NCBI GenBank assembly: GCA_902596665.1
Contig: CACJUN010000001.1
Location: 477,083-541,082, forward strand
Direction: 5' to 3'
Origin: an uncultured SAR86 cluster bacterium
GTDB lineage: Bacteria; Pseudomonadota; Gammaproteobacteria; Magnimaribacterales; AG-339-G14
Length of the DNA stretch: 64,000 nucleotides
Positions 56,851 through 59,161 of the stretch are shown piece after piece; position 1 is the first letter of the stretch; every line of letters begins with the position of its first letter. A program made the translations under genes and the position numbers. The notes under the pieces were generated by a model. That model worked only from the letters and a program-made list of their open reading frames with translations, searched no databases and was not told where the DNA came from.

Positions 56851-58155
56851 TTAGGATGCTTTGTCTAAAGCTTGAGAAATGTCGGCAATGATATCGTCGA
56901 CATGTTCAATACCAATTGAAAGCCTCACATATCCGGGGGTAACCCCAGCAGACAACTGCTCCTCAGGAGCTAATTGACTGTGAGTTGTTGTAGCCGGATG
57001 AATTGCTAAAGATCTAGAATCACCAATATTAGCTACATGGTACAAAAGCTCTAATGAATCAATAAATTTACTTCCAGCTTCCTTGCCGCCTGGAAGTTCA
57101 AAACCAATTAAAGCTCCGTAACCGCCTTTCATATATTTGTCAGCCTTTTCTTTTTCTGCACCCTCAAAAAGTCCAGGATAAGTAACTGATTGAACTTTAT
57201 CGTTATTTTCTAAGAATTCAGCTACAGCTTGTGCATTCTTAGCGTGTTCACGCATTCTTAATGGAAGGGTTTCCAAACCTTGAATAAACATCCAAGCACT
57301 GAATGGACTCATAGCTCCACCTAGATCCCTTAACAAAGTAGTTCTTAGCTTTAGGAGGTATGCAAATGGCAGTCCCATTGTTTTGGTAACTTGCTGATCC
57401 CAGACTACTCCTCCGTAACATGGGTCAGGAGTATTTAGTGCAGGCTGTCTATCAGCTCCTGCTTCACCCCAATCAAAATTTCCTCCATCGAGGATAAGAC
57501 CACCAATTGTAGTACCGTGACCACCTATGTATTTAGTAGTTGAGTAAGTTGTAACAGCAGCACCATGATCAAAAGGTCTACATAAAACTGGCGCAGCAGT
57601 GTTATCAACAATTAAAGGTATACCATGCTTTCTTCCAATATCAGCAACTTCTGCAATAGGAAAAACCTGCAATTTTGGATTAGGTAGAGTTTCAGCAAAG
57701 TAAGCTCTTGTCTTATCATCTGTAGCTGATTCAAAATTATTTGGATCAGTTGGATCAACAAAACGAACTTCGATACCCATTTCTTTTAAATTATTCTTGA
57801 ATTGATTATAAGTACCACCGTATAAGTGCGCAGATGAAACAATGTTATCCCCTGCTCTGGCAACGTTTTGAATTGAGTATGCAGAAGCAGTTTGACCGGA
57901 AGCAACCGCTAAACCAGCAACACCGCCATCCAAAGCAGCCATTCTTTGCTCAAGAACATCACAAGTTGGATTCATTATTCTTGTGTAAATATTTCCAAAC
58001 TCTTGTAATCCAAATAAGCTAGCTGCGTGAGCAGTATCATTGAATTGATAACTAGTAGTTTGATGAATTGGAACAGCTACTGATCCAGTATTTTCATCGT
58101 TTCTCCATCCAGTATGAAGAGCTATGGTTTCTAAATTTTTTCCTTCATATGACAT
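56851..58155 (-). CDS. metY: O-acetylhomoserine sulfhydrylase-type PLP enzyme
   Basis: ETIALHTGWRNDENTGSVAVPIHQTTSY; STTKYIGGHGTTIGG; start MSYEGKN after SD GGAG. Confidence 0.94.
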   Translation of the reverse strand: MSYEGKNLETIALHTGWRNDENTGSVAVPIHQTTSYQFNDTAHAASLFGLQEFGNIYTRIMNPTCDVLEQRMAALDGGVAGLAVASGQTASAYSIQNVARAGDNIVSSAHLYGGTYNQFKNNLKEMGIEVRFVDPTDPNNFESATDDKTRAYFAETLPNPKLQVFPIAEVADIGRKHGIPLIVDNTAAPVLCRPFDHGAAVTTYSTTKYIGGHGTTIGGLILDGGNFDWGEAGADRQPALNTPDPCYGGVVWDQQVTKTMGLPFAYLLKLRTTLLRDLGGAMSPFSAWMFIQGLETLPLRMREHAKNAQAVAEFLENNDKVQSVTYPGLFEGAEKEKADKYMKGGYGALIGFELPGGKEAGSKFIDSLELLYHVANIGDSRSLAIHPATTTHSQLAPEEQLSAGVTPGYVRLSIGIEHVDDIIADISQALDKAS

Positions 58156-58164
58156 TTTTATCTC

Positions 58165-58198
58165 CAAAAAAAACCTGCTTGTTTTGCTAAGCAGGTTT
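58165..58198 (-). terminator. Intrinsic terminator in the metY leader
   Basis: Minus strand AAACCTGCTT-AGCAAAAC-AAGCAGGTTTTTTTT: perfect 10-bp stem and T-tract, directly before SD GGAG. Confidence 0.9.
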
Positions 58199-58202
58199 AA
58201 GA

Positions 58203-58256
58203 ATCCTGTTTAGCTAATTTTTTAAAGCGTCAGCAAGTCGGTTAAATCAACGCTAT
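58203..58256 (-). promoter_or_regulatory. SAM-II (SAM-alpha) riboswitch-like aptamer
   Basis: Minus strand AGCGTTGATTTAACCGACTTGCTGACGCTTTAAAAAATTAGCTAAACAGG resembles the SAM-II core (GCG..UGAUUUAACCG..UUGC..CGC...AGCUAAA.AGG) and precedes metY. Confidence 0.9.
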
Positions 58257-58303
58257 AAATTCGATGATACACAATTTTATTTATAAAAGGTATATTTAAT
58301 TCT

Positions 58304-59161
58304 ATGAATAAAGAAACACTCAAAACAGAAAAAATAGATAAATCATTATTAATTACTTTCACTAGACCAGACGAGATGAATACATTCAGTGGAAAAATGA
58401 TGGTTGAAATTATGGAAACTTTAGACGAAGCAGAATCTGATGATTCTGTGCGTTCTGTTATTTTTACCGGCTCGGGCAGAGCTTACTGTGCTGGTGCTGA
58501 TCTATCTCAGGGAGAAAAAACGTTCGATTGGTCCAAAAGAGATTCAAAAGTTAATGGAGTTGCAAGAGATACTGGCGGAATGCTCACTTTGAAACTATAC
58601 GATTTTAAAAAACCCATCATTGCTGCGATAAATGGATCTGCAGTTGGTGTAGGAGTCACTATGACGCTCCCGATGGATGTTCGAATTGCATCCGATAACG
58701 CAAAGTTTGGATTTGTCTTTGCAAAAAGAGGCATAGTGCCAGAAGCATGTTCCTCTTGGTTTCTACCTAGAATTGTGGGCGTTAGCCAATCATTGGAATG
58801 GATGATGTCAGGAGAAGTATTTTCTGCAGAAGAAGCTCTTAAAGGAAAATTAATCAGAGAAGTTACTAGTCAAGAGAATCTGGTGCCAAGAGCATTAGAG
58901 ATAGCCCAAAAGTTTTCAGATAAGACCTCAGCAGTTTCCGTCAGTTTAACCAGACAAATGGTATGGAAAATGTTGGGAGAAAAACATCCTATGTCAGCTC
59001 ATAAAATAGACTCAAGGGGAGTGTATTATTTGGGAAGAAGTAATGATGTTGCAGAGGGAATCTCTTCTTTTCTAGAGAAAAGAGATCCTGAATTCTCAGA
59101 TACTGTTTCCAAAAATATGCCTGAATATTATCCGTGGTGGAAGGAAGAAGAATTTGAATAA
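58304..59161 (+). CDS. Enoyl-CoA hydratase/isomerase family protein
   Basis: FTGSGRAYCAGADLSQG, AAINGSAVGVGVTMTLPMDVRIAS. Confidence 0.93.
   Translation: MNKETLKTEKIDKSLLITFTRPDEMNTFSGKMMVEIMETLDEAESDDSVRSVIFTGSGRAYCAGADLSQGEKTFDWSKRDSKVNGVARDTGGMLTLKLYDFKKPIIAAINGSAVGVGVTMTLPMDVRIASDNAKFGFVFAKRGIVPEACSSWFLPRIVGVSQSLEWMMSGEVFSAEEALKGKLIREVTSQENLVPRALEIAQKFSDKTSAVSVSLTRQMVWKMLGEKHPMSAHKIDSRGVYYLGRSNDVAEGISSFLEKRDPEFSDTVSKNMPEYYPWWKEEEFE

Follow-up and report, generated by a model that had tools for sequence, protein, structure and literature searches.

The metY gene of an uncultured SAR86 cluster bacterium is very probably (probability of roughly 0.88, as judged from the leader and its relatives) controlled by a SAM-II riboswitch that acts as an OFF switch via premature transcription termination. 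The leader, about 100 bases in length, is located on the minus strand of the analyzed stretch of 64,000 nucleotides (here termed the window), between metY and a divergent enoyl-CoA hydratase gene on the plus strand (58304 onward). In the proposed mechanism, a pseudoknot formed with bound SAM would hold GCUAAACAGG, the 3′ strand of the aptamer, leaving the 5′ arm of an intrinsic terminator free; the terminator would then form, and metY would not be transcribed. When SAM is scarce, GCUAAACAGG would pair with CCUGCUUAGC upon emergence of the latter, the terminator 5′ arm would be blocked, and RNA polymerase would continue into metY. The aptamer match, the terminator, and the complementarity with its conservation are seen directly in the sequence and in the comparison with relatives, whereas SAM binding, the direction of the response, and the efficiency of termination are inferred. 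SAR86 is an abundant marine lineage with small genomes, most of it uncultured, and such a switch would subject its homocysteine-forming step to SAM-dependent attenuation of transcription.

The host genome is that of a SAR86 cluster bacterium, and, within named genomes, the MetY proteins most similar to that of the window (up to 100% identity) come from SAR86 cluster bacteria. The gene directly downstream of the aptamer is a methionine/SAM gene; its identification as metY in the first-pass annotation agrees with the NCBIfam model score (Table 1), and its ATG start codon was read from the sequence at 58155-58153 (minus strand). Besides MetY, the genome encodes a MetX homologue, which is located on another contig without a SAM-II match and scores under the curated cut-off. 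The TGTGTAT..T motif around the −10-like hexamer recurs in another SAR86 genus, upstream of its metY aptamer (TGTGTATATT). A consensus scan for sigma-70 promoters on the minus strand of the leader reported no sigma-70-like site, TATCAT included, so that the promoter remains inferred.

Table 1. Features of the metY leader and adjoining regions, in window positions
Feature	Position	Strand	Basis
SAM-II (SAM_alpha, RF00521) riboswitch match, full model 1-79	58189..58263	minus	cmscan, 39.9 bits; gathering score, 36
P1 5′ strand AGCGUU	58249..58254	minus	Rfam structure line
P1 3′ strand GACGCU	58226..58231	minus	Rfam structure line
P1-loop CC, expected P2b pseudoknot partner of GG 58206-58205	58240..58241	minus	Sequence and known SAM-II fold; putative
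P2a, loop GCU that can pair with AGC	58234-58232 with 58215-58213	minus	Sequence and known SAM-II fold; putative
Aptamer 3′ strand GCUAAACAGG (conserved GCUAAA core), doubling as antiterminator 5′ strand	58205..58214	minus	
Antiterminator 3′ strand CCUGCUUAGC	58186..58195	minus	
Intrinsic terminator: 10-bp stem, 8-nt loop, U-tract	58166..58198	minus	Terminator scan; fold, −12.2 kcal/mol
metY Shine-Dalgarno GGAG, directly after U-tract	58162..58165	minus	Sequence
metY, O-acetylhomoserine sulfhydrylase, 434 aa from ATG	56851..58155	minus	NCBIfam TIGR01326, 601 bits; cut-off, 495
−10-like hexamer TATCAT	58264..58269	minus	Sequence and upstream strings of relatives; putative

The assignment to SAM-II, proposed before any database search, is borne out by the Rfam SAM_alpha model, whose match exceeds the gathering score (E 1.6e-5 for the whole 64-kb window). 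RF00521 matches the genome at one place only, the metY leader, and a search of 14 control genomes gave zero matches. It is also the sole Rfam match in positions 57900-58500 at E values up to 1; the other SAM riboswitches (SAM-II long loop, RF01726; SAM-V; SAM-I/IV) gave no match in this search. Alignment to the Rfam consensus revealed an intact aptamer core, with the conserved segments GAUUU, CUUGC, UUAAA, and GCUAAA and the P1 stem all present, and in another SAR86 family both sides of P1 are changed (AGCACC with GGUGCU). The Rfam structure line carries no pseudoknot, but the putative P2 pairs are possible by sequence (CC/GG and GCU/AGC), and in one genus loop and tail change together from ACC..GG to UCU..AGA. 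Plain folding of the leader gave a stability that is not unusual (z = −1.16), an unsurprising result for a leader in which alternative folds are in competition with a pseudoknot.

The terminator between P2 and the metY reading frame, likewise recognized in the first-pass annotation, is the only one found by the terminator scan in positions 58100-58400, where shuffled sequences lead one to expect 0.1. Its hairpin, AAACCTGCTT-AGCAAAAC-AAGCAGGTTT, occupies 58198-58171, with eight Ts at 58173-58166 (minus strand). Along the minus strand, GCTAAACAGG (58214-58205) is followed by the 9-nt spacer ATTCTTAAA (58204-58196) and by CCTGCTTAGC (58195-58186). Direct reading confirmed all letters and coordinates given previously, including the pairing of GCUAAACAGG with CCUGCUUAGC at nine of ten positions over a 9-nt loop, with A58209 against C58191 as the lone exception. 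The view that CCTGCTTAGC contains the 5′ arm of the terminator holds for its first seven bases, whereas the last three (AGC) belong to the loop and take no part in the terminator stem. Watson-Crick complementarity at nine of ten positions arises in 0.19% (0.0019) of dinucleotide shuffles of the downstream leader, and nine pairs including G-U arise in 5.6% (0.056); when the terminator arm and the next three loop bases are permuted, the 9/10 complementarity is reached in 0.008% of permutations.

SAM-II matches are present in 112 of 203 SAR86-order genomes, representing 19 of 22 genera (E up to 0.001); the gathering score is exceeded in only 14 of these genomes, so that SAR86 copies typically fall slightly short of it. 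A U-tract terminator was found in 43 of 45 nonredundant SAR86 metY leaders, and all 43 SAR86 metY leaders possess either ten (20 leaders) or nine (23 leaders) of the ten antiterminator pairs. When nonredundant SAR86 leaders with SAM-II and a terminator were considered irrespective of the downstream gene, at least nine pairs were present in 49 and at least eight in 60 of 61 leaders, which are mutually related and do not amount to 61 independent trials. Shuffled segments reached 9/10 in 4% and 8/10 in 23% of cases, with a maximum of seven leaders at 9/10 in any shuffled replicate.

As the aptamer fixes six of the ten antiterminator positions, ordinary covariation is a weak test, and the analysis relied instead on how unequally the two arms of the terminator are conserved. 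In the 43 metY leaders, the 5′ arm is nearly invariant (CCTGTTTAGC in 34, CCTGCTTAGC in 7), while the 3′ arm occurs in nine forms, including GCAAACAGG and GCTGGCAGG. The latter pairs with the same Us through G-U, and changes from UU-AA to UU-GG preserve the terminator. Function as a terminator would not by itself keep one arm constant, so the fixed 5′ arm opposite a variable 3′ arm argues for the antiterminator. Bases that are useless to the terminator are retained as well, specifically a bulged A in most genera and the loop AGC in the window's genus; both are needed for pairing with GCU. Covariation among relatives had been suggested earlier as a check. In six leaders of another SAR86 family (L124, L133, L145, L164, L174, and L185; downstream gene cystathionine-synthase-like by reading), U-A replaces C-G at antiterminator position 7, and the terminator 3′ arm is altered to match. 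The compensatory evidence is in effect this one event, and most positions never vary, a thinness explained by the fixation of GCUAAA by the aptamer; tail position 9 is altered without compensation in 10 of the 43 leaders, and in five an A or G at position 7 is left unpaired with G. Overall, the predicted antiterminator, which would exclude both the pseudoknot and the terminator as originally proposed, is supported by the nine of ten pairs, their conservation in 43 leaders, and one compensatory change.

Another SAR86 family (L126 1501-1620, L132, L147, L156, L160, L189, and L191) has metY leaders without a U-tract terminator. A segment complementary to the aptamer tail is kept in this group (GCUAAAUAAGAUUC/GAAUUUAUUAGC in L126; GAGAA/UUCUC in L147), and the combination of the two features makes a different output mechanism likely.

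ViennaRNA was used to fold the growing transcript; pseudoknots are ignored, and the probabilities are model values only. Before emergence of the terminator 3′ arm, the antiterminator forms with a probability of 0.999. Folding with and without pseudoknot constraints had also been suggested in the first-pass annotation; when the tail was barred from pairing, to mimic the pseudoknot with bound SAM, the terminator reached approximately 1.0. Without constraint, however, the full-length leader likewise favors the terminator (0.87-0.94), leaving 0.06-0.13 for the antiterminator once the terminator arm is complete. Since the terminator is thus favored at equilibrium without SAM, the SAM-free state of the window leader must be decided by kinetics, and its basal termination may be high. 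In the L009 and L130 leaders, the antiterminator has a probability of 0.85-0.99 once the U-tract is reached, whereas L024 resembles the window. The arrangement had been described as unusually clean, but the window copy is among the weaker versions: its antiterminator energy is −8.7 versus −12.2 kcal/mol for the terminator, it carries an A-C mismatch shared by its genus, and several relatives pair at 10/10 positions, with a more evenly balanced switch. The comparison of leaders gives good support to SAM-dependent termination in competition with an antiterminator.

The position of the Shine-Dalgarno sequence bears on two alternatives that involve translation. In addition to causing termination, the hairpin next to this sequence might hinder ribosome binding in read-through RNA, a proposal that is compatible with SAM-dependent termination and that we consider improbable. 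As such hindrance would favor, no spacer separates the U-tract from the Shine-Dalgarno sequence in the genus of the window or in part of another SAR86 family (L123 and L128-L130), but spacing varies across SAR86, with longer spacers in three other genera, the U-tract itself parts the stem from the Shine-Dalgarno sequence, and no conserved anti-Shine-Dalgarno pairing was found. Somewhat less probable still is a purely translational SAM-II riboswitch, in which a Shine-Dalgarno sequence would be concealed within the P2 pseudoknot upon SAM binding, the terminator being incidental or constitutive. The P2 3′ strand does carry a Shine-Dalgarno-like AGG (58207-58205), as in the compact Sargasso Sea SAM-II, and the metA terminator of Sinorhizobium meliloti is not predicted to be SAM-responsive, the riboswitch acting there on a distant start codon (PMC9373788). 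However, the AGG is located 49 nt upstream of the AUG, whereas the proper GGAG, 6 nt upstream of the start codon, does not belong to the aptamer: it follows the P2 3′ strand at a distance of 39 nt instead of being part of it as in the translational SAM-II subtype. Moreover, a second constraint, matching the aptamer tail, acts on the terminator 5′ arm. A constitutive terminator beside a decayed aptamer, with the complementarity as a by-product of the A+T-rich leader (compare the shuffles with G-U above), is strongly disfavoured by the intact aptamer core, by the retention of aptamer, terminator, and pairing in 43/43 metY leaders, by the 49/61 leaders at 9/10 versus 4% of shuffles, and by the divergent gene on the opposite strand.

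Several other SAM-II loci were noted. A second SAM-II type (GATTTGATCCTATTGC ... GCTAAAACGGAA ... TTCCnAGGATTTAA) occurs in the SAR86 relatives L016 (1501-1575), L014, L033, L039, L151, L182, L183, and L202, where it precedes the gene of a membrane protein of approximately 373 aa that contains a fatty-acid-desaturase/AlkB-like domain (PF00487, tested on L016); two tandem copies are present in L182 and L202. By reading, this type is also found before homocysteine methyltransferase-like and metH-like genes. It has no U-tract terminator, and the aptamer loop TTTGATCCT is matched by the complementary AGGATTTAA, which together suggest another expression platform. In L026 (1501-1689), the gene of an OmpW-family outer-membrane protein (PF03922) follows SAM-II with a terminator and then a SAM-I/IV aptamer (RF01725, 61 bits). 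Similar OmpW-like leaders are present in L040, L154, L162, L165, and L169 (the Rfam scan covered L026 only). SAM-II/SAM-I-IV tandems are reported to be rare, with seven examples (PMC9481103), and SAM control of an outer-membrane protein would be unexpected. SAM-II matches in L138 (1501-1575), L136 (1501-1575), and L034 (1871-1945) also precede genes for surface proteins and not for methionine enzymes, namely TonB-dependent-receptor-like proteins (Plug domain in L138) and a lipoprotein of approximately 570 aa. In L181, SAM-II and a terminator stand directly before the start of a peroxiredoxin-like gene (MSIRINSEIPNLVVETTQGSFALRDW), and a second SAM-II nearby precedes a cystathionine-synthase-like gene, both genes being identified by reading. 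Pelagibacter metY leaders (L096, L097, and L102-L109) show, again by reading, a SAM-II-like aptamer followed by a SAM-V-looking element (GGTAGGCATTTGAACTATATTGTGCGCC) and are without an obvious terminator.

The first-pass annotation regarded SAM-II as usually acting on translation, a description that applies to the much-studied Sargasso Sea example but not to the class as a whole. Putative intrinsic terminators are present in many SAM-II members (Corbino et al. 2005, PMC1273637), and, among the aptamer classes, SAM-II alone seems to be linked mostly to regulatory terminators in alpha- and betaproteobacteria, its aptamers reaching the expression platform through the distal pseudoknot (Barrick & Breaker 2007, PMC2258182). 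For the S. meliloti metZ leader, termination upon SAM binding was predicted and a terminated RNA of ~100 nt was detected in vivo (PMC9373788). In the originally reported SAM-II/SAM-V tandems, the terminator always comes after SAM-II (PMC9481103), and metY is the core SAM_alpha target in two alphaproteobacterial orders (PMC4239095). A study on covariation of whole riboswitches names SAM-II in its reference list only (PMC13273304), and a full-text search for SAM-II with SAR86, or SAR86 with riboswitch, returned no title or abstract describing this leader. The idea that the leader represents an uncommon or novel application of SAM-II was rejected on the basis of PMC1273637, PMC2258182, PMC9373788, and PMC9481103.

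The window switch is most likely an ordinary SAM-II transcription-attenuation riboswitch, in an arrangement that is real, conserved in relatives, and of a known kind. It leaves the knowledge of riboswitches unchanged and offers a compact, well-conserved three-strand switch suited to in vitro work. More tentatively, SAR86 might possess its own fixed SAM-II expression platform, in which the invariant ligand-binding segment GCUAAA itself would be the antiterminator strand and the terminator would keep a bulged or looped A for complementarity, so that one short sequence would bind the ligand, act in antitermination, and also contribute to termination through its near copy in the terminator 3′ arm; we regard this as possible but doubtful. 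The GCUAAA-antiterminator form may be undescribed for gammaproteobacteria.

Compared with known systems, the leader shares with RF00521 SAM-II (PMC1273637) the P1 stem, the conserved loop, the GCUAAA 3′ strand, a downstream methionine gene, and a terminator between P2 and the reading frame; unlike in the consensus, the P2 loop strand is four bases shorter and the host is gammaproteobacterial (SAR86). As in S. meliloti metZ (PMC9373788), the SAM-II aptamer is predicted to bring about Rho-independent termination upstream of a gene of the methionine pathway, although leader sequence and host differ. In metY leaders of marine alphaproteobacteria (OCS116 and PS1 clade; L060-L066 and L113), the aptamer 3′ strand and the terminator 5′ arm form a local hairpin as well, but with other letters (CUGGG/CCCGG pairing) and with the P2 strand after GCUAAA in place of GCUAAA itself. 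With the Pelagibacter SAM-II/SAM-V tandem (PMC2704228, PMC9481103), the leader has in common a marine bacterial host and a SAM-II aptamer with predicted termination control, whereas it has, by Rfam, no second SAM aptamer.
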